Shown here: positions 6,471 through 31,785 of the stretch, one piece after another
How the letters are laid out: each line of letters starts with the position of its first letter
How positions within the stretch are numbered: the first letter of the stretch is position 1
Assembly: GCA_001778375.1 (NCBI GenBank)
Contig: MFGV01000001.1
Location: 1-64,000 of the forward strand
Reading direction: 5' to 3'
DNA: 64,000 nucleotides
Origin: Candidatus Firestonebacteria bacterium RIFOXYD2_FULL_39_29
Lineage (GTDB): Bacteria; Oederibacteriota; D2-FULL-39-29
The notes under the pieces: model-generated
Seen by the model: the letters and a program-made list of their open reading frames with translations, nothing else
Told to the model about the DNA's origin: nothing
The model's database searches: none
Made by a program: the position numbers and the translations under genes

Positions 6471-7547
6471 TTAGCTTTTTGTCAATAACTCATTTGATAT
6501 GAGAGATATTTTTGATAGGAGTGTTGAAATTCCCATAGATTCTTTGGCTGAGACAAATACAGCATCAGGATAGTCATTCTTTAAGCGTAGAATTCTGGAT
6601 TTTTGAGTCATATCTATTTTATTTAACACTGTCAAAATAGGTTTATTTAGGACGTTTAACTCGCGAAGCTCCCTGTATACAGCTTCAATTTGAATGTCAA
6701 GATCTAATCTGCCGGCATCTAAAATCATAATTATGATATCAGAATATTCAATCTCTTCAAGAGTTGCCCTGAATGATGTCACCAGTTCAGACGGTAAGCT
6801 TCTGATAAATCCAACAGTATCAGTCAACAGAATACTGACTTTAGATGAAAGGTACAGTTTTCTGGTTGTCGGGTCCAGTGTTGAAAACAGCTTATTTTCA
6901 GCAAGAACATTAGATTTTGTCAACAAGTTAAGCAAAGTTGATTTTCCGGAGTTAGTGTAACCTACGAGAGTCGCATTCAGAAACCCCTTGGCTTTTCGTC
7001 CCTCTCTCATTATTTTTCGATGAGCCCTTACATCATCAAGCTTTCCTTTTAAAAATTCTATGCGGCTCCGTATATTACGCTTATCAACTTCCAGCTTTGT
7101 CTCACCCGGCCCCCTCGTTCCAATACCTCCACCCATCTGAGAAAGCTCTATTCCTTTTCCTGATAACCGCGGCAATAAATAGATAAGCTGAGCTAATTCT
7201 ACCTGCAGCTTTCCCTCCGTTGTCCTTGCATGTCTTGCAAAAATATCAAGAATAAGAGTACACCTGTCTATTATTTTTCTTTTAATAGACTCTTCCAAAT
7301 TACGCTGCTGATTTGGCTTTAAATTATTATTAAATATTATAACATCCGCGCCTATTTCTCGGCTTCTTTGGCGAATTTCATCAACTTTTCCCTTTCCAAT
7401 AAAATAAGTCGCATCAGGAATACTTCTATTTTGAATTACTGTCTCAAGAATCTCCACTGAAGCGGTATTCGCAAGCAGTTCTGTTTCTTTATAAGAATCT
7501 GCCCCTTCGGTAGAAATTCCGCAAAGTACTCCTTTTTCTATAGGCAT
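6471..7547 (-). CDS. hflX: GTPase HflX
   Basis: HflX is a ribosome-associated GTPase that splits or rescues stalled 70S ribosomes, especially under heat stress. The 358-residue protein has the N-terminal HflX domain ending in the conserved [15 protein letters not shown], then the G domain with P-loop [15 protein letters not shown], switch [12 protein letters not shown] and the NKID specificity motif (LNKIDM). The C-terminal extension is short. Its ATG at 7547 overlaps the end of miaA by 10 bp; miaA-hflX adjacency is common in bacteria, though here hfq is absent. Confidence 0.96.
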
Positions 7548-8494
7548 TTTTTTTCCTTTATTTTAGAGATAATGTATCTTAATAATATATCTATATCTTC
7601 TTTAGCATCAACCCAGTTAACCCTTGGATCTTTTTTAAACCACGTAATCTGCCGCTTTGCATAGTGCCTGGTATTCATTTTTGTTAAATATACAGCTTTT
7701 TCAAAAGTGATAAGCCCCTTAAGATGATCTGCAAATTGCCGGTAACCAAGACCATTTAACTGAGAAATTTCGAACCCATACTTATCAACTATAGTTTTCA
7801 CTTCATTCAAAAGTCCCGCACTCAGCATTTTATCAACTCTATCATTTATTCTGGAATAAAGCTCTTTTCTTTCAAGATTCAGCCCGATGAGAACCGTACT
7901 TCCGATATCTAAAGGAATTGCAGACTTCGCAATTTCCTTTCTGGATTTATTTGTAACTCTAAACAACTCAAGCGCTCTTATTATCCTCATCTCATCATTA
8001 AAGTGAATATGTTTTGCAGAATCAGGATCTGATTTGACTAACTCTTCATAGAGGAATTTAAGTCCTTTTGTTTTTATTTCATCAATTATACTCTGCCTGA
8101 CTCCCTTAAAAGAACCTTCCACCTTCAAAAGGCCGTCTAATACAGCTCTAACATACAAACCCGAACCGCCAACCAATATAGGAAAACGACCTTTACTAAC
8201 AACTTCTTTTATGGACTGCCTTGCCATAGTTGAATAATCGAATGCATTTAACTCTGTTTTAGGAGATATAGTACCAATAAGATGGTGTTTAACCGTTTTT
8301 AATTGCCGCTCATCAGGTTTTGCAGATCCAATATCAAACTCCTTGTAAATCTGCAATGAATCAGCGGAAATAATTTCTCCTTCCAGCTCCTTTGCCAGCC
8401 TGAGAGAGATGTCCGTCTTACCTGAAGCGGTCGGCCCAAGGATTACAAGAAGAGAGGCATTTTTAAGTTCTTTTGAATTTTTTATCAAGCTCAT
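7538..8494 (-). CDS. miaA: tRNA dimethylallyltransferase
   Basis: MiaA adds a dimethylallyl group to N6 of A37 in tRNAs reading UNN codons. Diagnostic segments are the P-loop [49 protein letters not shown] and the tRNA-binding [17 protein letters not shown] directly precedes an ATG at 8494; I chose the ATG, giving 318 residues, close to the family norm. The gene begins inside the last codons of mutL and overlaps hflX, so mutL-miaA-hflX form one coupled unit. Confidence 0.96.
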
Positions 8495-10181
8495 CAAAGG
8501 TTATCTTAATTATCCCCGGTCTACCGTGAGGACAATATGGCAGGTCGCATTCAATAAAGTTATTTATTAATATAAGCATTAACTCATAGCTTAAAGAATC
8601 TCCCGCCCTCACAGCCGAATGACAAGCTAATGTCTTAACTATTAAATCTGCTTTGTCACTGATAGAGCTAGAGTTACGATTATCTTCTTCAAGCTGTTCA
8701 ATAACTTCAATTAATACTCTTTCAGAATCCTTTCCTGCAAGAAATTCAGGGACTCCGTTAATCATAAAAGTATCTTTCCCGATAGCCTCAACATCGAAAC
8801 CAAATGTCTTAAAAGTTTTTATATTATCATTAAGTATTTTAACTTGCTTGTATTTTAAACTAACACTTATTGACGTAAGTAACTGCTGGGATCCGCAAGA
8901 TTGTTTTTTGTCTTTCAACTTCTCATAAAGCACTTTTTCATGCGCAACATGTTGATCAATTATGTATACAGCTTCTTCGTCAGCAGCTATGATATACATG
9001 CTTTTTGCCTGATAAATCGGTTTTAGACGGTATTTTTTTTCATCTTGAAGAACCTCCTGAACAAAAGAGGCTCTATTTTCAAAAGCGGCAGGTATTGACT
9101 CTAATCGCGAATTATTATTATCACCGGAATAACTGCCAATATTCTTAATAGTTCCGCTTTGAGATGCTCCCTCAAGCGTAATTGCCGGGACCGGTTTCCC
9201 GCTTATCAGAGATTCTTTTATTGCACTTTCCACTGCATTATGAACCAGGGCACCGTTGGAAAATTTGACCTCTTTTTTTGTCGGGTGTACATTCACATCT
9301 ATAAGTCCCGGATTAATTTTGATATCCAGAACCGCCAACGGATATTTTCCAAAAGGTATTAGATTCCCATAACCGGAGACTATTGCGTGGTTTATTGTTT
9401 TATCACTTATCAAGCGGCCATTCACAAAAGTATAAATATAGTTTCTACTGCTTTTTAATTCCTGGGGAGAGGATATAAAACCGTCTATCTTTACTCCGGA
9501 CTGCTCACACTTCACAGGAAGCAGACATTTTACCGTGTTCTCTCCAAACAACTGATAAAGCCGTTCTCTCATCGTCTTAACTTGTTCAACGAAAAGCAAT
9601 TCTCTTCCATCCGATTTTAATTCAAAACAAACCGCATAATTATATATTGCCAGTATATGTATAATATCATTTATATACCCGGTCTCAGTCTCTACACTCT
9701 TCAAAAATTTCAACCGGGCCGGTACATTGTAAAAAAGCTCATTAACGCAAATAAGAGTGCCGCTTGAAGCCTTAGCTACAATAATTTCCTTATTTTTTCC
9801 GTTAACTGACAACTTATATGCATTTTTTGATTTTTTGTAACAACTTGTTACTTCAAGTTTAGAAACAGCAGCTATTGAGGATAGCGCTTCGCCTCTAAAA
9901 CCAAGAGTATTAATATTATAAATATCTTCCAATTCTTTAATTTTACTGGTAGTATGCCTGTCTGTACAAATCTTTAAATCTTCCGGTTCCATACCTATAC
10001 CGTCATCTTTTACCTTTATAAGCTTTTTGCCTCCCTGTCTGATTTCTACAGAAATTCGCCCGGATTTGGCATCTAAGGAATTTTCCAGAAGTTCTTTAAT
10101 TACAGAAGCCGGTCTCTCAATGACTTCTCCGGCGGAAATCTTTTTAACAAGTTCTTCAGGAAGAATTCGAATATGACTCAT
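8463..10181 (-). CDS. mutL: DNA mismatch repair protein MutL
   Basis: The 572-residue protein has an N-terminal GHKL ATPase, with ISAGEVIERPASVIKELLEN, DDGIGM and GFRGEALSSIAAV, plus a C-terminal dimerisation/endonuclease domain. The metal-site motifs of nicking MutL proteins are present: DQHVAHEKVLYE (a variant of DQHAx2Ex4E), ACHSAVRAGD and CPHGRP. This predicts a MutH-independent, nicking mismatch-repair system as in most bacteria. It follows gatA by one base pair and overlaps miaA. No mutS is in the window. Confidence 0.96.
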   Translation of the reverse strand: MSHIRILPEELVKKISAGEVIERPASVIKELLENSLDAKSGRISVEIRQGGKKLIKVKDDGIGMEPEDLKICTDRHTTSKIKELEDIYNINTLGFRGEALSSIAAVSKLEVTSCYKKSKNAYKLSVNGKNKEIIVAKASSGTLICVNELFYNVPARLKFLKSVETETGYINDIIHILAIYNYAVCFELKSDGRELLFVEQVKTMRERLYQLFGENTVKCLLPVKCEQSGVKIDGFISSPQELKSSRNYIYTFVNGRLISDKTINHAIVSGYGNLIPFGKYPLAVLDIKINPGLIDVNVHPTKKEVKFSNGALVHNAVESAIKESLISGKPVPAITLEGASQSGTIKNIGSYSGDNNNSRLESIPAAFENRASFVQEVLQDEKKYRLKPIYQAKSMYIIAADEEAVYIIDQHVAHEKVLYEKLKDKKQSCGSQQLLTSISVSLKYKQVKILNDNIKTFKTFGFDVEAIGKDTFMINGVPEFLAGKDSERVLIEVIEQLEEDNRNSSSISDKADLIVKTLACHSAVRAGDSLSYELMLILINNFIECDLPYCPHGRPGIIKITFDELDKKFKRT

Positions 10182-10182
10182 A

Positions 10183-11655
10183 TCAAAATATCCCTTGTTT
10201 CTTTGACGTTACTTTTTTGCTCGCTTGCTCAAAAGCATGAGCAAGACTTAAAAGCTCACCTTCCATAAAAGGTTTACCAATAAGCTGAAGGCCTATAGGA
10301 AGGTTGTCCTTAGAAATACCGCAAGGAATAGAAATCCCGGGAATCCCCGCCAGATTGGCAGAAATTGTAAATATATCAGAAAGATACATTTGAATAGGAT
10401 CCGAGACTTTCTCTCCAAGTTTAAATGCCGGAGTCGGCGCCGTCGGCGTGAGCACACAGTCATACTTTTCAAATACCTTATCAAAATCTCTTTTAATCAA
10501 AGTCCTAACTTTTTGCGCTTTCAAATAATAGGCATCATAATAACCGGCGCTTAGAACATATGTACCAAGCATTATTCGTCTCTTAACTTCATTTCCAAAA
10601 CCGGAAGCTCTCGTAGTTGTAAACATCTCTCCCAGTGTTTTTGCCTCTTTATTTCGATAGCCGTAATGAACACCGTCATATCTCGCAAGATTTGAGCTGG
10701 CTTCCGCTGTGGCTATAACATAATAAGCCGCCAGGCAATACTCCGTATGCGGTAAACTTACCTCTCCAAATTCAGCACCAAGTTTTCTATAGGTTTCTAT
10801 TGATTCATTTACTGCCTTCGAAACATCTTCAGACAAACCGCCTTTTCCAAAATATTCTTTGGGCAGTGCAATTTTCATGCCTTTAATACTTTTATTCAAA
10901 TATTTCGAATACACAGGAACTTCTTTATTAATAGAGGTGGAATCTTTTTTATCATAGCCCGCAATTATTTCAAGTAAAGCGGCATTATCTTCCACATCAG
11001 AAGTAATCGGACCTATTTGATCAAGAGAAGAAGCAAAAGCTATCAATCCGTACCTTGAGACCCTTCCATAAGTAGGCTTTAAACCGACAACGCCGCAACA
11101 AGATGCAGGTTGACGAATGGAACCTCCGGTATCTGAGCCAAGAGATAATGGTGAAAGTCCGGCGGAAACAGCCACCGCTGAGCCCCCTGAAGAACCTCCC
11201 GGTATTCTTGAGTCATCCCACGGATTTAAAGATGGTCCATAAATAGAATTTTCAGTAGAAGATCCCATGGCAAATTCATCCATATTACACTTGCCAAGTA
11301 TAGGCATTCCGGCATTTTTTAATTTCTCAACAATAGTTGCATCATAAGGCGAGATAAAATTATTCAATATCTTCGAACAGCAGGTAACTTTTGTCCCTTC
11401 ACTGCACATATTGTCCTTTAGAGCTACAGGAACTCCAAACAACGGAGAACAAATACTTACGCCAGCGGAAAGTTTTTTATCATTATCTTCCGCAGTTTTT
11501 AAAGCACTTTCAAATTCTTCGGATACAAATGCATTTAACTTTGGATTAAGCTTTTTAATCCTTTCTATAAATGCTGCTGTTACCTCTTTTGAAGAGACTT
11601 TTTTTGATCTTATTAATTCTGCAAGTTCATGGGCTTTCATTTCTGTAAAATTCAT
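10183..11655 (-). CDS. gatA: Aspartyl/glutamyl-tRNA(Asn/Gln) amidotransferase subunit A
   Basis: GatA is the glutaminase/amidase subunit that releases ammonia to amidate Glu-tRNA(Gln) or Asp-tRNA(Asn). Its 490 residues include the amidase signature [20 protein letters not shown] and the [13 protein letters not shown] segment, giving the Ser-cisSer pair, with the triad lysine in VPVALKDNM. Length is normal for the family. gatC lies 4 bp upstream in the same operon; gatB is not in the window and must be elsewhere. The presence of GatCA implies indirect charging of Gln-tRNA and/or Asn-tRNA. Confidence 0.97.
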
Positions 11656-11659
11656 TTTC

Positions 11660-11944
11660 TCACTCCATCATCTTTGGAATCTTATAATGTCCCAACTCTT
11701 TCTCCGGAGCATTTGATAGCGCCTTTTCCCGGCTAAAAGAAGGTTTGAGCTCATCTTCCCTCATTACGTTTGTAACAGGGATAACGCTTGAAGTAGGTTC
11801 TATACCGTCAGTATTCACCTCTTTAAGTTTATCAACAAATTCTATCATGCCTTCTAATTGAAGAGCAAACTTGTCCAGATCTTTCTCTTCAAATTTCAAA
11901 TGTGAAAGTTTCGCCACATGAAGAACATCTTTTTTTGAAATCAT
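11660..11944 (-). CDS. gatC: Aspartyl/glutamyl-tRNA amidotransferase subunit C
   Basis: This 94-residue protein begins [19 protein letters not shown], the typical GatC helix, and ends with the conserved [20 protein letters not shown] stretch that wraps around GatA. GatC stabilises the GatA-GatB complex. Its ATG overlaps the stop of the DUF1537 kinase gene as ATGA, and gatA follows after four bases. Confidence 0.95.
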
Positions 11945-13113
11945 TGCAGCTCCTTTAGTCTTTTAAAAATAGTAATTAGAGCATTTTTATCTCCATAACC
12001 TCCGGGTTTTGTCACAACATATAAATTTATCTCCGGACTGTAGGTCAAAGGTATCCCGGATAAAATACTTCCTGTTATTTCTGTAAAATTAATATTAAGC
12101 GCTTTAAAAATATTCTCAGCAGTAGCCCCTCCGGACAAAACCAATTTTCCATATCCTCTTTCTTTAAACAATTTGACTGCCTCTTTGGCAAATTTCCCGT
12201 CTATACGTTTCCCTTCTGCTTTATCATACACAGCTTTACTTGTTTTTTTTACCGAAAAAATAACAGTTCTCTGTTTTGTCATGCGTCTATTTGACGGATC
12301 AAATTTTTCTTTTCCCATATAATCTTTAAACAGACTCAGCTGTTCATGCGTGATTTTTTTCATACTTCCTATAAAAAAAGCCTGACCGGCTTCAATATTA
12401 ATCTCCGGCTTGAACTTTTTTCTCTTCTTTTTTTTCAACAAATACTTAACAAGAGCCGAGGCCCCCGCTATTACTCTGAAACCCTTCAAACTTTTAGATA
12501 TTATTTCAAGATCCGTGTTTGAAATACAGTCAAAAACAAAAATAACAGTTTTTTTACCGTTATACTCAACCTGCTTTTCTATAAAACTAAGTACAGCCTC
12601 TGAACCTTTTCTTATTATATCTATCTCTACAAGTACCGGACAGTATTTTGACTGGTTCTTTAATAATTCAATTATATTAGAAGTTAAAACCGGATTCAAG
12701 GCATCTAAAGCAAATTCAGTATTTTCTATGACATCGGAGTCAAGAAATAACCTCCCATAAACACTGCAGCGCTTCAAAGCAGGCAAAGCGGTAACAAACG
12801 CAGCCTTATTAGTTCTCAATGCATCTACACACCCGTCTATCTCTTGTCCGATATTTCCGCGCAGAGTTGAGTCAGTTTTTTTATATATTAAATCATATTC
12901 AGAAAGTGAAAGAACCATTTTTTTAACTTTTGCATAAGCTTTTTTCCCGTTCAACAATCTTGTTGAACTGTTATAAACCGGAACATCCACAAGCTTTCCC
13001 TGTTTAAGACCTGTTGAATTCAAAGAACAGCAGGTATATCCCTGCAGAAACACCTGTGAACCGGCATCATTCGCACCGGTTAAATCATCTGCAATTACCG
13101 CTATCTTTTTCAT
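11941..13113 (-). CDS. Four-carbon acid sugar kinase family protein (DUF1537)
   Basis: The 390-residue protein has the two-domain DUF1537 layout. The N-terminal part carries VIADDLTGANDAGSQV and the substrate-site KKTDSTLRGNIGQEI. The C-terminal nucleotide-binding part carries LVLSGGATAENIF and the terminal TKPGGYGDKNALI. Characterised relatives phosphorylate four-carbon acid sugars such as D-threonate, L-threonate or D-erythronate. The exact substrate cannot be read here, since no DUF1537-associated dehydrogenase or aldolase adjoins it. It sits between a YabE-like cell-wall gene and gatC with ATGA overlaps, an odd location for a catabolic kinase. Confidence 0.85.
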   Translation of the reverse strand: MKKIAVIADDLTGANDAGSQVFLQGYTCCSLNSTGLKQGKLVDVPVYNSSTRLLNGKKAYAKVKKMVLSLSEYDLIYKKTDSTLRGNIGQEIDGCVDALRTNKAAFVTALPALKRCSVYGRLFLDSDVIENTEFALDALNPVLTSNIIELLKNQSKYCPVLVEIDIIRKGSEAVLSFIEKQVEYNGKKTVIFVFDCISNTDLEIISKSLKGFRVIAGASALVKYLLKKKKRKKFKPEINIEAGQAFFIGSMKKITHEQLSLFKDYMGKEKFDPSNRRMTKQRTVIFSVKKTSKAVYDKAEGKRIDGKFAKEAVKLFKERGYGKLVLSGGATAENIFKALNINFTEITGSILSGIPLTYSPEINLYVVTKPGGYGDKNALITIFKRLKELQ

Positions 13114-13919
13114 TTTAGGACATAAGTTTTTACATACTTCGGATTATAAGTACTTGAATCTTTATATTCATCAAAGCAAAGATCTATCTTATTACCTTTT
13201 ATGCTCCCGCCGGTATCAGCAGCAATACAATACCCATAATTCTCAACATATAACTTTGTTCCAAGAGGTATAAGTTTAGGATCCACTGCACATACACCAT
13301 AACCTGCTTTCATGCCGTTCGCAGTTAAACCATCAGCGTAGGGACCACAATCTTCAGGTCCGGGATAGTACCCTGTAGCAAGAAGACTATAGACCTTGAC
13401 AACAGTCATTTTTTTGGTCATCATGTACATTCTTTTTGCTTTTGTTGTACCCTGTATAACAACTCTGTTTACCGGTTTTTTTTGATTAGAAATATTAAAT
13501 ACCTTGCGCCAAACTTCTTTATTATCATGATATCTCACTTTTACTTCTTTTTCAAGAAAGCCATCAATACCATTTTGAAGATCTACTATTTCATTAATAT
13601 TAAGGTTTTTATCCCAGATCCTGACAGTTTCTGCTTTTACTATTTCTGTAACTGTAATATTTGCTTCTTTAACTCTTTGAATCTTTATCATCATCCCGTC
13701 TGTCACAAGTGTATTTAAACTCGGAGAAACAATATCCTGAATTTCCAGGGAAAGTTTTTTTTCCTTTAACACATCGTAAACCGTACAGTTTTTAACATCC
13801 GCTTCCACTATCTTACCGTCTACAAGAATTTTTACATTACCTTTGAATGGATTGAAATACACGCTTCCGGTCAAAAGAGTTACAATAAGAAAACCTGCGA
13901 TAATAATAATATTTTTCAT
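13110..13919 (-). CDS. YabE-like protein with DUF348, G5 and 3D domains
   Basis: The 269-residue protein has an N-terminal membrane anchor or signal (IIIIAGFLIVTLLTGSVYF). A ubiquitin-like DUF348 repeat (VKILVDGKIVEADVKNCTVY) and a G5 domain (~100-165) follow. The C-terminal 3D domain contains LLATGYYPGPEDCGPYADG, VDPKLIPLGTKLYVEN and AADTGGSIKGNKIDLCF, with the three conserved aspartates. 3D domains resemble MltA/Rpf lytic transglycosylases and act on peptidoglycan outside the cytoplasm. It follows the TatD gene, exactly as yabE follows yabD in Bacillus. Confidence 0.88.
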   Translation of the reverse strand: MKNIIIIAGFLIVTLLTGSVYFNPFKGNVKILVDGKIVEADVKNCTVYDVLKEKKLSLEIQDIVSPSLNTLVTDGMMIKIQRVKEANITVTEIVKAETVRIWDKNLNINEIVDLQNGIDGFLEKEVKVRYHDNKEVWRKVFNISNQKKPVNRVVIQGTTKAKRMYMMTKKMTVVKVYSLLATGYYPGPEDCGPYADGLTANGMKAGYGVCAVDPKLIPLGTKLYVENYGYCIAADTGGSIKGNKIDLCFDEYKDSSTYNPKYVKTYVLK

Positions 13920-22421: not shown

Positions 22422-24317
22422 CTAATGCTGCACAGGGATAATAACACCTCTCATTATTACTCTTTGTGCAAAACCAAAGATAAATAAAGTAGGTATAGCT
22501 GATACTACAAGAGCGGCCATTAGTAAAGACGGAGATGCCCAAATCTGCATTTCATACAACCATACCATAATAGTCCACATACTTGGGTCCTGACACACAA
22601 GTAAAGCAAACATAAAGGCCGTATAAGCTCCCACAAATGCTCCCAGTGCCAGATATGCAAGTATAGGCTTAGCCAATGGCAGTGTAATATCCCAGAATAT
22701 TTTCATCTCACCTGCTCCATCCATCTGAGCGGCTTCATAGAATTCCTTGGGCAAGCTGTCAAAGAATCCCTTGAGAATAAATATACTATAACCACTCGCC
22801 AGTCCCGGCAATACCAAAGCCCAATATGTATTTAACATATGCAGTTTCTTTAGCATTAAAAAATTAGGTATCATTGCCACTTCTGCAGGAAAAGCCATTG
22901 TTGCAAGCAAAAATATCAAAACCTTGTTACTATATGACAGGCTGAACCTTGAAAGCGCATATGCGCACATCGGATTAACCGTGAGTGTTGTGAATATTAT
23001 AATAAAGCAAAAGATAGCAGTATTAATCACAGCTCTTCCATGCAGAAGAATGTACTCAGATACTTCCTTATAATTTCTGGTAATAAAGTTCATTCTGATT
23101 TTTCCGGGATTTTCCTTCAAATCAAACCAATCGTTCAATTCACAAGGAATTCTAATTTCTTCGAAAGTTTTATACGAAGATGTATACACTTTATTATAAT
23201 CACTAATATTTTTGTACTTCTTCTCCGCAAATTCCCTGAATTTTAATTCACTTGTTTGTATTTTGATATATGATGCAGGAAATGCTGTTTCTTTATCTTT
23301 TATCATCTCCAATATATCAGGGAATATCTTATTATTTACCTCATTTTCATAGTTATCTTTTATTCTTAACTCCTTGAAAGATTTGTATCCTCCCTTAGGA
23401 TTAGACGGAAAATATATAATATTAAGTTTCTCAATTTTCTTGTATTTTTTTTCTAAATATCTGCGATATATCGAATCAGTTCTTTCATCAAGTTTGAAAT
23501 AGATCAAAGGTACTCTTGATTTTGCGAAATACTCCCAATCTTCCTTTATTTTTGTACCTGCTATCGTACCTGAGAATAGTATCTCACTGAACTTTTTATA
23601 GTTTGACTTGTATTTTTCATTAAAAAAAGAAATATTATTATATTTACGTATTAAATATAGCTGAAAATTACCTTCTATTAAAACAGGATACAGATAATTA
23701 TTTGGCAGCTGACTCTTAAATTCCAAATACTCCTTGACCAATAAACTGTCTTCATATTTAAAACCCCTATCATCAAGTCTTTCAAAAGGGCTTCTCAACC
23801 TGGTAAAATCTTCATTTTCCATAGCATATTTTTTATTTACTATTTTAATATCCTTGTATTTATTTTCAATATATTCTCGATAAAGACGTTCCGCCCTTCC
23901 GGTGGCAGAACCTACGACGCGAAACCCCATTGCTTTGTATTGAGCAGGTAATTCTGTCATGTATTCTTCCCAATCAGATCTTACTTTTCGAACATCTATT
24001 CCTGAATATTTCGGAATTTTAACATCTTGAAACCTGAGATAATATTCCGATGCTCTGTGGTTAAACAAGTCAAGACTCGGATTCGTGGCGGTATATTTAT
24101 CTGAAACATACTTTTTAAATAAATACTCTTCATTGTAAAAATATTTTGGTATAACACGATATTCCATATAATCAACTTCATTTGTTGTCGATCCCGCCAA
24201 CATAAGCAAAAACGGATAAACCATGGTAATACCGCCTAAAATTAAAAATAAGTATAAAAGAGCAAAAATAAAAATCGTTTTTGGACTCTTTCTGCCCACT
24301 GAATCTATTAAAGGCAT
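22422..24317 (-). CDS. Sugar ABC transporter permease (MalG type) with a large repeated insert
   Basis: The C-terminal ~425-631 region is a MalG-like permease with the EAA loop EFYEAAQMDGAGEMKIFWDI. The N-terminal helix (~15-40) is also MalG-like. Between them lie about 380 extra, probably extracytoplasmic residues with at least four copies of a motif approximating FxxKYKxIxxxNxxYxxxYKxFxEI, near residues 145-185, 220-262, 284-322 and 358-400, some followed by DW. Ordinary MalG proteins have about 280 residues. The motif recalls segments in GH42-like enzymes; that link is a guess. It follows the binding-protein/permease fusion by 15 bp. No ATPase gene is nearby. Confidence 0.85.
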   Translation of the reverse strand: MPLIDSVGRKSPKTIFIFALLYLFLILGGITMVYPFLLMLAGSTTNEVDYMEYRVIPKYFYNEEYLFKKYVSDKYTATNPSLDLFNHRASEYYLRFQDVKIPKYSGIDVRKVRSDWEEYMTELPAQYKAMGFRVVGSATGRAERLYREYIENKYKDIKIVNKKYAMENEDFTRLRSPFERLDDRGFKYEDSLLVKEYLEFKSQLPNNYLYPVLIEGNFQLYLIRKYNNISFFNEKYKSNYKKFSEILFSGTIAGTKIKEDWEYFAKSRVPLIYFKLDERTDSIYRRYLEKKYKKIEKLNIIYFPSNPKGGYKSFKELRIKDNYENEVNNKIFPDILEMIKDKETAFPASYIKIQTSELKFREFAEKKYKNISDYNKVYTSSYKTFEEIRIPCELNDWFDLKENPGKIRMNFITRNYKEVSEYILLHGRAVINTAIFCFIIIFTTLTVNPMCAYALSRFSLSYSNKVLIFLLATMAFPAEVAMIPNFLMLKKLHMLNTYWALVLPGLASGYSIFILKGFFDSLPKEFYEAAQMDGAGEMKIFWDITLPLAKPILAYLALGAFVGAYTAFMFALLVCQDPSMWTIMVWLYEMQIWASPSLLMAALVVSAIPTLFIFGFAQRVIMRGVIIPVQH

Positions 24318-24332
24318 TTTAAACCCTCCAGC

Positions 24333-26741
24333 CTATAGTTTATTTACAGTCGTAAATCTGACATCGCGCAATATCCGTAATTGCAGTACAGTAAAGCCTA
24401 CCAAAAAGCTTCCCAAAACCCAGGCAATAGCTGTCGCATATCCAAACCTGAGATATACATAAGCATTATAAAATATCTCAAGACCTATAACATGCGTAGC
24501 ATTTGCAGGGCCTCCGCCTGTCATTACTAAAATATTTGAAGTTGCATTAAAAGCTCCTATGAATGCACCCACAAAATTTATTATAAGCAGCATACTCAAA
24601 GTAGGGTATGTAACATGCCTTAATTTACCCCATATCCCGGCTCCGTCTATGGATGAAGATTCATACAATTCTTCGGGAACATTTTTTAATGCTGCAAGAT
24701 AAAAAACACTTCCCGCTCCTACCCCACCCCAGATACCGGGAATGATAATGCAGAGCATCGCAAGTTTTGAGTCAAAAAGCCACATCTGACCCGGAAGATT
24801 AACAGCAGCAAGAAGTTTGTTGAATAAACCTGCCTGACTAGGCTCGTAAAACTGTTTCCAAAGGAGAAGGACTATTATGCCGCTAGTTACAGTCGGAAGG
24901 TAAAATATCATTCTGAAAAACAAAGAACCCCTTGGTATCTCATTAAATATCAAAGCCAGTATTATTGGAGCAAAAAAACCAAGTGCTAATGTCAGAACAA
25001 CGTAAAAAACAGTATTCACTACTGATTGCCAGAAAATAGGCTGCCAAAATAATTGAATGAAATTACCAAGACCTATCCATTCACTGTTTCCGACTATTTT
25101 ATAATTCTGAAAGGCCATCAGCAAACCGCTGCCAACAGGAAAGTATGACCACATCAGTACAGTAATTACAGCAATACCCATAAAAAGCCAGGCAAACATA
25201 TGATTTCTGAAACTTGTCTTCTGATAATTCACAGCATTTGGTTTTGACATTTCCTTAAATATTCTAAACGCCCTGATTCCAAAATAGGAAAAAACAACAG
25301 CAATTACGAAAAGAACAATCCAGACTTTGGCAGTCCTGTTTTTCCGTTCCTTCTCTTCCAGTTTCCCAAGCAATTGCTCATTAGTATGCTTTTCAGCTAT
25401 TGCCAGTTCTGCTGCAATATCAACATTCGGATTACTCTGAATTTTATCAAGTACTACCGAAAGCTCACTATAAATCATATCACAGTTTTTGCCATAAGGC
25501 TCGGGATGTGCGTATTTAAATGCTTCTTCGTTTACTTTTATCCATTGTGGATTGGCATCTTCAAGTAAATCACTATAACCAAAACTCTTAAGATATTTTG
25601 GATTCAAAAACCTGCCCAAACCTTCTTCAACCAATATTCCTGTACTGATTCTTTTTGGTTCTTCACTGCTCATATATTTAAGATATCTTACAGCAGCATC
25701 AAAAACCCGGGGATCTTTAACCTGAGAATTCACTCCAAGCATATCCTGGTTAAACTCTCCGCCTCCTTTACCTGTCGGACCAACAGGTAAAGGTGCAATT
25801 TCATACAATTCCGTATTTGCGCCCGGAGGAAAGAGTTTCTGTTCATCAATATAGTTAAAGCTCATTCCTATTCTGCCTTCAGACATAGCTCTGGTAATTT
25901 CCGTAGAAGAACCTCTAAAAACAACACCCTTATACTTTTTACCGTTTTTTATAAACTCTTCATGGAAAAGTCGCTGATAGAATTTTAATGCCATAATAGT
26001 TTCTTTACTGTTATATACAGCCTGCCACTCGCCTTTTTCATTTTTAGCAACAATGTCACCGCCGGCCTGATAAATAAAATTAAAGAAATGCCAACCGGCT
26101 TCAACTCCCGTAGGTCCCGCATACCCATAGATACCTTTATCAGGGTCATACATTTTTTTTGAATACTCTATAAACTCTTCCCAGTTCTTTGGCGGCTTCT
26201 TTGGATCAAGTCCGGCTTTTGCAAAAACATCTTTTCGATATTGCATTGCCATTATCAGTGGAGCTCCAATTGGAATAAGATATAAATGCTCTTTCCCGTC
26301 AGGAGGACCTTTTTGCATTATAGCCGGCATTATTTTAGGATGGAATTTACTAATCTCTTCATTTGAAAAATACCCGTCCAAAGGCAAATATAACCCTTGA
26401 TCAATATAAGTCGTACTTTTCCTTAAATAACTCAGCATAACATCAGGAGCGGTTCCGCCGGCTAAGGCCATGCTTACAGAATCAGCAGAATCCATACCCG
26501 CCATAGCAATACCTGCAGCCGCTTTTAATTCAAGATCAGGATTTAACTCAAGAAACCTTTCATATACCTGTCTCTCAGCACGCATGTATGCCGATCTAAC
26601 ATCTTTTCTTGGAATACGCCATATTTTAAGTACTACTTTATCGTTACTTTTATTATTTTCCGCAAGAATAATACCAGGTAATGTTATTATTGCCGCGAGA
26701 ATATAAATAAAAAACTTTACATATATAACTTGCTTTTTCAC
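24333..26741 (-). CDS. Fused sugar-binding protein and ABC permease (MalE-MalF type)
   Basis: This 802-residue protein starts with a signal sequence (YVKFFIYILAAIITLPGIILA). An extracellular solute-binding domain follows at ~32-450, with GGTAPDVMLSYLRKS, VFAKAGLDPKKPPKNWEEF and SEGRIGMSFNY. After a helix near 465-490 comes a MalF-like permease (~505-800) with the EAA loop ELYESSSIDGAGIWGKLRHV. Binding protein and permease are normally separate, so the receptor is tethered to its channel. The GTG start is supported by AGGAGG. The partner permease follows, while the ATPase must be encoded elsewhere. The substrate is probably a sugar. Confidence 0.88.
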   Translation of the reverse strand: MKKQVIYVKFFIYILAAIITLPGIILAENNKSNDKVVLKIWRIPRKDVRSAYMRAERQVYERFLELNPDLELKAAAGIAMAGMDSADSVSMALAGGTAPDVMLSYLRKSTTYIDQGLYLPLDGYFSNEEISKFHPKIMPAIMQKGPPDGKEHLYLIPIGAPLIMAMQYRKDVFAKAGLDPKKPPKNWEEFIEYSKKMYDPDKGIYGYAGPTGVEAGWHFFNFIYQAGGDIVAKNEKGEWQAVYNSKETIMALKFYQRLFHEEFIKNGKKYKGVVFRGSSTEITRAMSEGRIGMSFNYIDEQKLFPPGANTELYEIAPLPVGPTGKGGGEFNQDMLGVNSQVKDPRVFDAAVRYLKYMSSEEPKRISTGILVEEGLGRFLNPKYLKSFGYSDLLEDANPQWIKVNEEAFKYAHPEPYGKNCDMIYSELSVVLDKIQSNPNVDIAAELAIAEKHTNEQLLGKLEEKERKNRTAKVWIVLFVIAVVFSYFGIRAFRIFKEMSKPNAVNYQKTSFRNHMFAWLFMGIAVITVLMWSYFPVGSGLLMAFQNYKIVGNSEWIGLGNFIQLFWQPIFWQSVVNTVFYVVLTLALGFFAPIILALIFNEIPRGSLFFRMIFYLPTVTSGIIVLLLWKQFYEPSQAGLFNKLLAAVNLPGQMWLFDSKLAMLCIIIPGIWGGVGAGSVFYLAALKNVPEELYESSSIDGAGIWGKLRHVTYPTLSMLLIINFVGAFIGAFNATSNILVMTGGGPANATHVIGLEIFYNAYVYLRFGYATAIAWVLGSFLVGFTVLQLRILRDVRFTTVNKL

Positions 26742-27639: not shown

Positions 27640-27996
27640 TTACTCCCACTGCAAATATCCTTTTTTCCAGGCATACACGAGACCCAGGATTAAAATACCA
27701 AGGAATAAGGTCATTTCTATAAACGCAAATAATCCAAGCTCCTTAAAAACTACAGCCCAGGGATAAAGGAATATTACTTCCACATCAAAAATAACAAAAA
27801 GTATTGCAAAAAAATAATATCTCATGTTAAACTGAATCCAAGCTCCGCCAACAGGTTCCTCACCGCATTCATAAGTAGTTTCTTTCTCGTAGCCGGGCTT
27901 TGAATCCCTGACCAGGAATGCAGTCACCAGACCTCCGACAGTAAAACCCAGAGCTATAACAAAAAATATAAAAACTGCAAGATATTCATTTATCAT
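27640..27996 (-). CDS. nuoA: NADH-quinone oxidoreductase subunit A
   Basis: At 118 residues with three transmembrane helices it has the full NuoA signature: [34 protein letters not shown] and PWAVVF. NuoA is a small membrane subunit of respiratory complex I beside the quinone channel. Normally it is followed by nuoB, C and D; here none is present. Its ATG overlaps the metF stop (ATGA), so it is translationally coupled to a methylene-THF reductase gene. The rest of complex I may lie elsewhere, or this may be a relict or recruited subunit. Confidence 0.92.
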
Positions 27997-28889
27997 AAGT
28001 CTTTTTCCGCCTTAACTCCCGATAGTTCAAGAATTTTTGGGACTTTATCATCCCAGCCTAAAGGCATCAAATGTACACCCTGGCAGTAAGGCTTTAAATC
28101 TTTTATTAATCTTGCAGATATTTCAATACCTGTTTGACCTGACTTGGTCTTTTCTTTATCTTTCTTTAATTCTTCGATTAAATTGTCCGGGACATGAATG
28201 CCTGCTACATTCTCATTCATAAACTTTGCCATTCCGGCACCTTTAAGCACAACGATTCCGACATAAACAGGCACCCCAAACTGCTTTACTCTTTTCATGA
28301 ACTTTTCAAACTTATCAACTTCATACACTGCCTGAGTCTGAAAGAATTCAATACCAGCATTTATTTTCTTCTCCATTTTAAAGAGCTGAGGATCCAGAGG
28401 CTCCGCGCACGGAGATACAACTGCACCTTTACAAAACCTGGGGGGTTCGCCTTCCAAAGCATTCCCTGCCAGATCCTTGCCTTCTTCCAGTTGTTTTACC
28501 ATATAAGCTAAGGACACCGAATCCAGATCAAATACGGGCTTTGCATCTTTATGATCACCTAAAGTAGTATGATCTCCCGTGAGGAGTAACAGGTTTTCTA
28601 TTCCAAACAAAGCAGCGCTGAGAATATCTGATTGCAAAGCTAAACGGTTCCTGTCTCTGCAGGTAACCTGAAATACCGGCTCAATGCCTTTTTCTTTTAG
28701 AGCTTTACACATAGCCAATCCGCCAAGTCGCATGACTGAAGATTGATTATCCGTAACATTAATTGCATGAACATAAGGCCAAACAACTCCGGCCTCATGA
28801 AGAGCTTTCTCTATATGAAAACCCTTAGGCGGTCCAAGTTCAGAGGTAACAACAAACCTCCCCATTTTTGTGATTTCAGTAAATCTCAT
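27993..28889 (-). CDS. metF: Methylenetetrahydrofolate reductase catalytic subunit (MetF)
   Basis: MetF reduces 5,10-methylene-THF to 5-methyl-THF using a bound flavin. The 298-residue protein shows the TIM-barrel features [49 protein letters not shown] and [16 protein letters not shown]. The frame runs back to a TTG at 28904, but the ATG at 28889 has AAGGAGG four bases upstream and is preferred. Two MetV-domain genes and an RnfC domain lie upstream in the same direction, pointing to an anaerobic MetFV-RnfC2-type enzyme rather than a stand-alone NADH-dependent MetF. Confidence 0.94.
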
Positions 28890-28934
28890 AAAGCCTCCTT
28901 CCAAATAATAATTACTAAGTACTAATGGCTAATG

Positions 28935-29053
28935 CAGACTGTGTCGCAATTACATTTTCGATCTGACGTACCACAATAGGTTGTAGTTGCTCGATTCATC
29001 GAGCGTACCTATTGCGCCTGATGAATCAGGCAACTACATTGCGACACAGTCTG
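28935..29053. repeat. 119-bp element with 16-bp terminal inverted repeats and nested palindromes
   Basis: The ends CAGACTGTGTCGCAAT (28935-28950) and ATTGCGACACAGTCTG (29038-29053) are perfect reverse complements. Inside lie two hairpins, GCTCGATTCATCGAGC (28989-29004) and GCCTGATGAATCAGGC (29016-29031). There are also two interleaved arm pairs: CAATAGGT (28974-28981) with ACCTATTG (29007-29014), and TGTAGTTGC (28982-28990) with GCAACTACA (29030-29038). AATTACTAA occurs just outside on both sides (28910-28918, 29054-29062). It resembles a MITE or REP-like palindromic unit. It carries no gene and lies in the metV-metF gap. Confidence 0.75.
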
Positions 29054-29150
29054 AATTACTAATTAATGAACGCCAACCATAAACCGTTGGCGATTATATT
29101 TATAACTTATTTTCTTTTAAACATTTAACGGATGCTTTTGTCCGTTTACC

Positions 29151-29184
29151 TCAAATTGTCAATTGTAAATCGTAATTCGTAAAT
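29151..29184. repeat. Degenerate short-period intergenic repeat
   Basis: Read on the minus strand the segment runs as AATTTACG, AATTACGA, TTTACAAT, TGACAATT, a decayed 7-8 bp tandem repeat of the TTACGAA type. Similar sequence recurs near 43721-43747 and 63725-63800. It lies in the 299-bp gap between the MetV gene and metF, which otherwise holds the palindromic element. Confidence 0.5.
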
Positions 29185-29188
29185 TTCT

Positions 29189-29803
29189 TTACTGACTTTT
29201 CTTGTAATCGCGGATACTGATCATTTCTTTTAAATTTTTGTCACTTTCATTTATAGCCAACATCCTGTTAAATATTCTTTCCCAGCCGCATTCTTTATTT
29301 TTTGAAACTTCGCACTTTCCATTTTTCGCTCCGCCGCATTGACCATTTAAAAGTCCCTTGGAGCATGCTGTTACAGGACATATCCCGACAGTATATCCCA
29401 ACATGCATTCTCCGCACTGCTCGCAATCGCAAGAAGAAGGTGTAAATCCTGAGAAACCCGGGACATAAAATGTGTCACAACCGGAAAGAACTACTTTATC
29501 AGGAAGCAGACCGGCAAAAGTCTGAACACCTACTCCGCAGGAAAATATAACTACCGATACTGCCGCTGTAATTTCATTTTTATGAATGTCTAATCTCTTT
29601 CTTGTATACTCTTCATTGCACAAGTAGTCCAATTTTATCTCGCCGGATATATTCAATTTGGCAGCTTTTAGCTCTTCCTTGAGCGTTTCATATTCTTTTT
29701 CCGCAAAATGAACTTCTTTACAGCCAAAACAAGCGATCAATAATATTTCACCTTTAAGAAAAGGCAGAATTTCTTCTTTCTTTTTAACTTGAGTGATCAA
29801 CAT
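29189..29803 (-). CDS. MetV-like methylene-THF reductase zinc/Fe-S subunit
   Basis: The 204-residue protein matches the methylene-THF reductase C-terminal (MetV) domain. It has an N-terminal part with LLIACFGCKEVHFAEKEYE and SCGVGVQTFAGLLPDKVV, then the cysteine-rich CEQCGECMLGYTVGICPV and GLLNGQCGGAKNGKCEVSK. In acetogens MetV partners MetF and passes electrons from an RnfC-like NADH-oxidising subunit. Here it is downstream of, and overlaps by one base, a longer gene that itself holds a MetV domain fused to RnfC, so there are two MetV copies. Cofactor content is inferred. Confidence 0.88.
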   Translation of the reverse strand: MLITQVKKKEEILPFLKGEILLIACFGCKEVHFAEKEYETLKEELKAAKLNISGEIKLDYLCNEEYTRKRLDIHKNEITAAVSVVIFSCGVGVQTFAGLLPDKVVLSGCDTFYVPGFSGFTPSSCDCEQCGECMLGYTVGICPVTACSKGLLNGQCGGAKNGKCEVSKNKECGWERIFNRMLAINESDKNLKEMISIRDYKKSQ

Positions 29804-31785
29804 TACTTTTTTATCTCCCGCAGCATTTTCTTTGACTTTTTAAATATTTCGACCATATGTGATTTAGAAGAACAAATCTCCTCGCAGCAACCGCACTCGA
29901 TGCAATTCATTATGCCTTCTTTTTCTATTTTAACCCAATTTTCAGCTTTGGCATAGAAAACAAGTTTATGCGGTTTCAGCTCCATCGGGCAAACATTAAC
30001 GCATCTGCCGCATTTAATACAAGGTTCTTCCGTCAGATCATCTTTCTTTTGAACTACCGCAATACCGTTTGTACCTTTAATTACTGGCACTTCATAATCA
30101 TTTTGAGTAAAGCCCATTACGGCTCCGCCCATTTTAAGTTCGAATTTTTCAGGTACTTTTATACCGCAGACCTTGATTATATCAGATACAAGCATTCCTA
30201 TAGGTACTTCATAGTTCCCGGGTTTAGAAACACCTTCACCTGCTACTGTAACTACTCTGCTGACAAGCGGCATTCCTGAATATATTGAATCGTATACAGC
30301 ACAAGCCGTTCCAATATTATTTACTATTACACCGACATCCAAAGGAAGACCGCCAAGAGGAACTTCCCGTCCCAAAATCCTTTTTATAAGCATTCTCTCT
30401 GCGCCTTCAGGATATTTAGTTTTTACCGAAACTATTTCAACAGATGTTTCTGCTTTACACTTTTCTTTAAGAGCTTCCAGCGCTTCAGGTTTATTATCCT
30501 CTACAGCAATAATTCCTTTTTTAACACCTGCAGCTTTCATAAGCAGCTTAAATCCCATGAGGACTTTCCCGGGTCTCTCAACCATCAATCTAAAATCAGC
30601 ATTAAGCAGAGGTTCGCATTCACAGCCATTCAACAAAATAGTGTCCACGGGTTTGTTTGAGCTCAATTTTATATGCGAGGGGAACTGCGCCCCTCCCATC
30701 CCGACAATACCGGCATTTTTTATTGCAGAAATTATACTTTCTTTCGAGCAGCTCTCAAGAGTCCCTTTTGGAATAATAGAAGGATCCTGTTCGTTTTTCA
30801 TGTCATTTTTTATGCCAATTGTTAAAACGTCAAAAGGAAGCAAAGGATGTTTTCGCGGTTCCACAAAAATAACTTCTCCTGAGACACCGGAATGAACAAA
30901 AGCTGTAACCATCGCTTTTGAATCGCCTATTTTCTGTCCGACTTTAACTCTATCACCTATTTTTACAAATGGTTCACATATTACGCCGGCATGCTGCTGA
31001 AGAGGGATATAAACATATTCGGGAGGAGATATCTTCTCAATGGCTATTTTTGCGGTAAGTTCTTTTCTTTCCTCAGGATATATTCCGCCGTAGAAACCTT
31101 CATTTCTCTTTGCCTGTATGAATTTGACATAGGAATCAACAAAGTCTGCACTGTTTTTATTATAATTTCGCAGTTTTGGCAACTGTTCAATAAATATATT
31201 TTGACGATTTTGACAGGCTAAACGATTATAAATATTTTCCCAGGCACAATCTTTTTCTTTTGATACTTCACACTTGCCTTTTTTTGCACCGCCGCAGGGC
31301 CCGTTAATTAATCCCTTACTGCAATCCACAACAGGGCATATGCCTCCGGTAACACTGAGATAACACTCCCCGCAGGCACCGCATTTTTCCACACCTAAGG
31401 TAATCCCGTGAAAGCCGCCTTGAAAGACGGAATCACAAACAGTCAACACAGGAATATTTAGCTGTCCGGCAACGGTTTGAACACCTACCCCGCAAGAGAT
31501 AACAGCAACTGCATCCGCATTATTAATATCCTGCATTACATTTTTTAATAACTTACCGGTAAGATATTCATTACAGAGGAAATCCATGTGCATAAATCCT
31601 ACCGTGGTTTTTCCGGATTCATTGAGGAGTTTATTTAACTCAGCAGTTTCTGGTTCAACATCCAGGGCAAATTCATTAAAGCATTTATTACAAGAGATGA
31701 TATAAATTCTTTCTTGTCCTGCAAGTATCTCCAGTATCTCTTCTTTACTCTTTAGCTTGTATTTCGTGTAATCAGTTTTTTGCAT
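29803..31785 (-). CDS. MetV-RnfC fusion protein (probable NADH-oxidising methylene-THF reductase subunit)
   Basis: Residues ~1-200 are a MetV domain, with FLCNEYLTGK, SCGVGVQTVAGQLN, CGACGECYLSVTGGICPV and GLINGPCGGAKKGKCEVSK. The rest, ~245-660, is RnfC-like: the N-terminal barrel region (FVKIGDRVKVGQKIGDSK), GIVGMGGAQFPSHIK, LLNGCECEPLLNADFRLM, and two ferredoxin-like 4Fe-4S motifs CIKCGRCVNVCP and CIECGCCEEIC. The open frame starts at a TTG at 31815 inside the upstream gene; the ATG at 31785, two bases past its stop, is more likely (660 residues). RnfC2 in Acetobacterium is a separate protein. The fusion suggests NADH oxidation and MetV in one chain. Confidence 0.9.
   Translation of the reverse strand: MQKTDYTKYKLKSKEEILEILAGQERIYIISCNKCFNEFALDVEPETAELNKLLNESGKTTVGFMHMDFLCNEYLTGKLLKNVMQDINNADAVAVISCGVGVQTVAGQLNIPVLTVCDSVFQGGFHGITLGVEKCGACGECYLSVTGGICPVVDCSKGLINGPCGGAKKGKCEVSKEKDCAWENIYNRLACQNRQNIFIEQLPKLRNYNKNSADFVDSYVKFIQAKRNEGFYGGIYPEERKELTAKIAIEKISPPEYVYIPLQQHAGVICEPFVKIGDRVKVGQKIGDSKAMVTAFVHSGVSGEVIFVEPRKHPLLPFDVLTIGIKNDMKNEQDPSIIPKGTLESCSKESIISAIKNAGIVGMGGAQFPSHIKLSSNKPVDTILLNGCECEPLLNADFRLMVERPGKVLMGFKLLMKAAGVKKGIIAVEDNKPEALEALKEKCKAETSVEIVSVKTKYPEGAERMLIKRILGREVPLGGLPLDVGVIVNNIGTACAVYDSIYSGMPLVSRVVTVAGEGVSKPGNYEVPIGMLVSDIIKVCGIKVPEKFELKMGGAVMGFTQNDYEVPVIKGTNGIAVVQKKDDLTEEPCIKCGRCVNVCPMELKPHKLVFYAKAENWVKIEKEGIMNCIECGCCEEICSSKSHMVEIFKKSKKMLREIKK

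Follow-up and report, generated by a model that had tools for sequence, protein, structure and literature searches.

A probable type III methylene-tetrahydrofolate reductase with a MetV–RnfC fusion in a bacterial order in which acetyl-CoA synthase was not found

Three genes in a 64,000-nucleotide stretch of Candidatus Firestonebacteria bacterium RIFOXYD2_FULL_39_29 (contig MFGV01000001.1, positions 1 to 64,000; hereafter the window) very probably encode a type III (3S) NADH-dependent methylene-tetrahydrofolate (methylene-THF) reductase of the kind found in Acetobacterium woodii. They specify the catalytic subunit MetF, a stand-alone MetV, and a protein in which a MetV domain is fused to RnfC, as in the A. 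woodii subunit RnfC2. The RnfC2-MetV-MetF enzyme has been named both 3S and type III (PMC8515935, PMC8760232), and whether RnfC2 docks on the Rnf complex, as was proposed in 2012 (PMC3315566), is an open question in acetogen energetics. The enzyme type is already known; the host is less expected.

Architecture of the locus

The original prediction, made by reading the window, placed MetF, a stand-alone MetV and a MetV–RnfC fusion in one direction. Pfam and NCBIfam searches confirmed all three, each on the minus strand:

31785-29803, minus: MetV–RnfC fusion (RnfC2-type subunit), 660 residues; Pfam, NCBIfam, profile search, relatives and motifs
29803-29189, minus: stand-alone MetV, 204 residues; PF12225 at residues 110-200, synteny and tree
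28889-27993, minus: MetF, methylene-THF reductase catalytic subunit, 298 residues; PF02219

The locus has every architectural element of the type III (3S) enzymes, namely a MetF with PF02219, a separate MetV that matches PF12225 and keeps its cysteines, an RnfC2 composed of MetV and RnfC, and the order rnfC2-metV-metF.

As predicted, the fusion begins with MetV and ends with RnfC. PF12225 (residues 117–206) is followed by RnfC_N (231–329), Complex1_51K (355–499), SLBB (511–559) and Fer4_10 (586–638), giving an N-terminal MetV domain of about residues 1–212 and an RnfC part of about 230–658 with a flavin mononucleotide (FMN)/NADH (51K) domain. The two 4Fe-4S motifs expected in RnfC are present as CxxCxxCxxxC at 589–599 and 628–638. 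The NCBIfam rnfC model matched with 467 bits (cut-off 246) over residues 241–668 of a 670-residue form beginning at TTG 31815, the start in the open reading frame list; we took ATG 31785 instead, the position from which the proteins of relatives align as well, each from its own start. The frame is open, and the first 200 residues are MetV-like.

By profile comparison, residues 229–657 match A. woodii RnfC (9eri_C), taken from the structure of Rnf with NADH bound, and the 50 PDB matches listed for an AlphaFold2 model of the fusion are RnfC, NqrA and NuoF-like chains. This model, built from eight sequences, has a mean predicted local distance difference test (pLDDT) score of 65.7, and nearly all of residues 119–245 score below 50; it is therefore uninformative on the MetV clusters. 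Sequence and profile searches found no solved MetV structure.

The fusion is conserved across the order

We searched for the fused protein in 59 genomes, comprising nine of the window's order (its own, two more of the genus, two more of the family and four more of the order), 36 others of the phylum and 14 others of the domain. All nine order genomes carry it, with the main piece 58–77% identical, and in eight a single match spans almost the full length; in G001 (genomes and loci carry our own numbers) the match falls in two pieces and the stretch contains 502 N. A gene for an oxidoreductase of the GFO/IDH/MocA family, the fusion, metV and metF are consecutive in all eight relatives, some cut by contig ends. 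The protein search did not detect the fusion in any of the 36 genomes from elsewhere in the phylum or the 14 from elsewhere in the domain; among the latter, separate RnfC proteins occur in G045, G047, G050 and G057 and separate MetV proteins in G045, G054 and G055.

A contig scan with six short peptide patterns, which reaches close relatives only and is no census, returned 17 loci, with no A. woodii or Blautia record among the results. Two of these loci, from Oscillospiraceae metagenome-assembled genomes (MAGs; L004 and L005), share the three-gene order fusion-MetV-MetF with the window. Their fusions are 48% identical to the window's and are the only whole-fusion matches among the 17; their MetF proteins are 63% and 65% identical, respectively. 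We left out L012 (a fragment) and L013–L020 (weaker, partial matches). Because all nine order genomes and the two Oscillospiraceae MAGs carry the same arrangement, the fusion is genuine and not an assembly join.

Both MetV copies look intact and are old

Within the genome, only two proteins, the fusion and the stand-alone MetV, match PF12225 above its cut-off; one further match is weaker and falls short of it. The near-identical cysteine blocks noticed in the two copies from the outset are indeed present. Twelve cysteines are kept in all nine fused rows of the alignment and in all 12 MetV rows, save for one column of the latter at 11/12, and therefore neither copy looks degenerate.

In trees, one group (100/98) unites the nine fused MetV domains and a second (97/94) the ten stand-alone MetV proteins; the nine RnfC parts of fusions group together (100/99), apart from ten RnfC proteins without MetV. 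Members from Oscillospiraceae and from the window's order occur in each MetV group. The two copies are thus old paralogs that the window's order shares with Oscillospiraceae, and either the duplication and fusion predate the split between the two lineages or the whole operon was transferred. A recent duplication of metV was rejected, as the tree shows both copies to be old paralogs. The trees omit G007, which is nearly identical to G006, and the fused sequence of G001, whose gene contains a run of N; outside relatives of the fusion come from Oscillospiraceae only, and a long-branch warning applies to the outgroup and to the RnfC sequences.

Methyl-group metabolism of the host

The original prediction proposed NADH-driven methyl-branch chemistry in a non-acetogen, and a survey of relatives bears on both parts. 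The methylene-THF reductase of MetF, MetV and MetV–RnfC stands, and acetyl-CoA synthase (PF03598) was found in none of the nine order genomes, including the four that are at least 90% complete, nor in the two genomes of L004 and L005; carbon monoxide dehydrogenase (CooS) was not searched. That the reaction is driven by NADH is probable.

RnfD/NqrB (PF03116) was likewise found in none of the nine order genomes, with controls matched in four genomes including E. coli. Nor did we find a second RnfC in these nine, where matches outside the fusion and MetV reach at most 34 bits, whereas true RnfC proteins of four other genomes score 326–376 bits. That the enzyme docks to Rnf in this organism was rejected, neither RnfD/NqrB nor another RnfC having been found. 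Because the RnfC2 module is kept across an order (nine draft genomes) that yielded no match to RnfD or to acetyl-CoA synthase, a free-standing NADH-oxidizing role is favored.

A B12-dependent multi-domain MetH was not recognized in the nine order genomes with the Pterin_bind and Met_synt_B12 models. Met_synt_B12 matches occur in two of nine, only in open frames of 231–245 residues, and Pterin_bind matches in eight of nine, only in open frames of 270–317 residues, with none found in G001. A strong Pterin_bind match in five of nine was taken for FolP. A weaker match, in eight of nine, is in the window's own genome a methyltetrahydrofolate:corrinoid/iron-sulfur protein methyltransferase (NCBIfam, 338 bits, cut-off 259). 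A stand-alone corrinoid protein is present in all order genomes except G002, the own-genome copy being MtgC-like but below curated cut-offs; for both proteins the NCBIfam naming covers own-genome copies only.

The genome also encodes a group A6 [FeFe] hydrogenase and two formate-THF ligase homologs. One of the latter, itself below its NCBIfam cut-off, adjoins an FchA homolog (also below its cut-off), and the other lies near HdrCBA- and MvhD-like genes. At that second site (L043, own contig C75, 8193-17168), HdrCBA-/MvhD-like genes, a flavoprotein and ferredoxin-like subunits stand beside formate-THF ligase, a group that forms a possible soluble electron-bifurcating module.

A probable free-standing reductase and its direction

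The locus most likely encodes a free-standing NADH:methylene-THF reductase that feeds a split corrinoid methyl-transfer path. By analogy with A. woodii, NADH would be oxidized at the FMN that RnfC carries, and electrons would pass from the two 4Fe-4S clusters of RnfC through those of the fused MetV domain and then the stand-alone MetV to the flavin of MetF, which would reduce methylene-THF to methyl-THF. In this order the reductase probably operates independently of Rnf and acetyl-CoA synthase. Methyl-THF would be handed to the separate methyl-THF:corrinoid methyltransferase and the stand-alone MtgC-like corrinoid protein, and methionine would be the likeliest use of the methyl groups, at about even chances. 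What was determined here is the domain make-up, the order of the genes, the conserved cysteines and the occurrence in relatives; the electron route, cofactors and stoichiometry are carried over from A. woodii.

Several points weigh against this interpretation. Membership of type III is argued from published descriptions and architecture rather than from aligned A. woodii MetF, MetV and RnfC2, and the NADH dependence, two FMN, six 4Fe-4S clusters and 1:1:1 ratio are ascribed by analogy with the A. woodii enzyme to one known here from its genes alone. The order genomes are drafts, 80–98% complete, with four of nine combining at least 90% completeness and at most 5% contamination. PF03598 is a single Pfam model whose controls matched in two methanogens only, its reach for bacterial AcsB not being demonstrated.

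It is unlikely, though the best placed of the alternatives, that the enzyme runs in reverse, so that methyl-THF from methylated substrates would be oxidized and formate-THF ligase would make ATP. Such a route would draw on the MtgC-like corrinoid protein and the methyltransferase, together with the two formate-THF ligase homologs and the FchA homolog. However, no methyltransferase gene was recognized beside the corrinoid protein in the seven genomes inspected of the eight that have it (by eye and BLAST, with no family search; the MttB and MtaB families were not searched), and methyl-THF oxidation with NAD is reported to be endergonic and slow in A. woodii, though stimulated by methylene-THF dehydrogenase (PMC8760232).

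Flanking genes and linkage to complex I

The reductase genes lie among further minus-strand genes and are interrupted by a palindromic element:

33061-31787, minus: GFO/IDH/MocA-family oxidoreductase (Pfam), directly upstream of the fusion, a neighbor kept in relatives
28923-29065, no strand: palindromic element, like a miniature inverted-repeat transposable element, between metV and metF
27996-27640, minus: NuoA (PF00507, synteny)
27613-27425, minus: FlbD-like small gene
27459-26842, minus: 5-formyl-THF cyclo-ligase (TIGR02727, synteny)

The start of metV overlaps the fusion stop codon by one base and metF and nuoA overlap by four bases at the metF stop; the run from the oxidoreductase to the cyclo-ligase therefore looks like a single operon. 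The nuoA gene falls inside the span of the original prediction (27640-31785), which did not mention it. The gap between metV and metF measures 299 bases here versus 9–94 in seven relatives and 178 in G001, and the palindromic element, with inverted arms of 28 nucleotides that are 86% complementary, lies within the extra length. Among 118 loci, its 11-base end occurs in own-genome loci only. It turns up close to where own contigs C17 and C26 terminate, a pattern that fits a dispersed repeat at which assembly breaks off.

Two sugar ATP-binding cassette (ABC) transporter genes of unusual composition are also found on the minus strand. One (24333-26741) encodes an 802-residue fusion of a solute-binding protein to a permease (SBP_bac_1 and BPD_transp_1), and the other (22422-24317) a 631-residue permease with a long N-terminal part touching the GH42 profile. 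Homologs of one or both lie after or near nuoA in five of the eight relatives' stretches.

The position of nuoA bears on an improbable alternative in which methylene-THF reduction exchanges electrons with a Nuo-type membrane module and conserves energy, in the place proposed for Rnf in A. woodii. PF00507 finds a single nuoA in eight of nine order genomes, the window's own included, each time directly after metF. Among the relatives it is next to metF in seven of eight, the contig of G001 ending inside metF; in G003 and G004 the gene called directly after it is that of 5-formyl-THF cyclo-ligase. In seven of nine order genomes, nuoD and the methyl-THF:corrinoid methyltransferase share a contig and are 1.7–2.0 kb apart; G008 has them on different contigs, and in G001 the methyltransferase was not found and the only NuoD match is hydrogenase-like. 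All five genomes inspected (G000, the window's own, and G002–G005) have nuoBCDHI, the methyltransferase and a folC-like gene consecutively, with the contig of G002 beginning in nuoC and its nuoI matching only in part. In the window's genome this is:

own contig C11 (L098), 7144-13342: nuoBCDHI, methyl-THF:corrinoid methyltransferase and folC-like gene, apart from nuoA (NuoB and NuoD confirmed by NCBIfam; nuoC, nuoH, nuoI and folC named by eye)

These linkages suggest that the methyl-THF and nuo genes formed an old cluster that was later split. The failure to find RnfD or a second RnfC also agrees with coupling to complex I, as does a report that methylene-THF reductases, although mainly soluble, occur to some extent in the membrane fraction (PMC8760232). 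Yet the argument is one of gene linkage alone, noticed after the fact; the surrounding region is conserved too, and the adjacency may simply be inherited. Moreover, the purified A. woodii complex is reported to reduce methylene-THF with NADH without a membrane partner (PMC8760232). Slightly more doubtful still is the fuller proposal in which a complex I-type module takes the place of Rnf as the partner of RnfC2-MetVF, the methyl-THF genes having formerly stood on either side of a single nuo operon (rnfC2-metV-metF-nuoA / nuoBCDHI-methyltransferase-folC). If true, methylene-THF reduction may conserve energy in bacteria without acetyl-CoA synthase. Elsewhere in the genome (L045, own contig C15, 4699-11626), an 800-residue NuoE-NuoF fused protein is encoded, with genes for a 4Fe-4S protein and for a PQQ-like beta-propeller protein alongside.

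The free-standing NADH:methylene-THF reductase is preferred to two further readings. From the two MetV modules in the operon, the original prediction suggested a different stoichiometry; a new enzyme of this kind is very improbable, as the A. woodii enzyme is published with this make-up, and L004 and L005 have it too. An assembly join or frameshift as the origin of the fusion, for which no supporting evidence was found, was rejected with near certainty, given its presence in nine of nine order genomes (eight as an uninterrupted match) in the same neighborhood and in two Oscillospiraceae MAGs.

Comparison with known methylene-THF reductases

The original prediction contrasted the fusion with an unfused RnfC2 in A. 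woodii, and here it was mistaken. Relative to RnfC1, A. woodii RnfC2 has a MetV-like N-terminal extension of 220 residues (Poehlein 2012, PMC3315566), a domain also described in PMC8515935 and PMC8760232, and it occurs beside a separate MetV. A fusion plus an extra MetV is the published type III make-up, and the extra MetV alone therefore implies no other stoichiometry. The purified A. woodii complex is reported to be 1:1:1 and NADH-dependent, with 23.5 Fe and 2 FMN (PMC8760232, citing Bertsch 2015), an iron content described as consistent with six 4Fe-4S clusters distributed over MetV and RnfC2 (PMC8760232). That number would follow from two clusters apiece in MetV, the fused MetV domain and the RnfC part, and we assume the same here. 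In the MetFV tree of PMC8515935, A. woodii belongs to group II. A 2026 review restates the NADH site on RnfC2 (PMC13001107).

Among titles in the open-access literature on RnfC2 (subscription papers lay outside the scope), none concerned an uncultured phylum with this enzyme; among the papers listed by further searches, judged by title and the start of the abstract, none reported it in bacteria without acetyl-CoA synthase, which is weak evidence. Ruminant acetogen MAGs are reported to have metF, metV and rnfC2 (PMC12449052), and a deep-sea Chloroflexi genome with a complete pathway is described as having an HdrABC-MvhD-MetVF cluster and a second MetF, whose closest counterpart is the A. woodii protein (PMC5736913).

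The window's enzyme shares with A. woodii its three subunits (an RnfC2 with an N-terminal MetV domain, a separate MetV, and MetF) and the order rnfC2-metV-metF (PMC10472528). A. woodii, however, is an acetogen with Rnf and carbon monoxide dehydrogenase/acetyl-CoA synthase and has fhs-fchA-folD upstream (PMC3315566, PMC10472528), whereas the window has a GFO/IDH gene upstream and nuoA downstream, and acetyl-CoA synthase and RnfD were found in none of the nine order genomes. The Oscillospiraceae loci resemble the window in gene order and in the fusion itself, but L004 is without nuoA beside metF and the L005 stretch ends soon after metF. Type II MetVF of Clostridium ljungdahlii has MetV and MetF in common with the window and is described as having no RnfC2 and not using NADH (PMC8760232, PMC8515935). 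The type IV (6S) HdrCBA-MvhD-MetVF enzyme of Moorella recalls the HdrCBA- and MvhD-like genes near formate-THF ligase in the window's genome, but these lie on another contig, away from metVF. Finally, the X type of Desulfobacterales and Chloroflexi, with NuoEFG homologs upstream of metFV (PMC8515935), also places nuo-type genes beside metFV, whereas in the window the neighbor is the membrane subunit NuoA, encoded downstream of metF, and RnfC2 is present.

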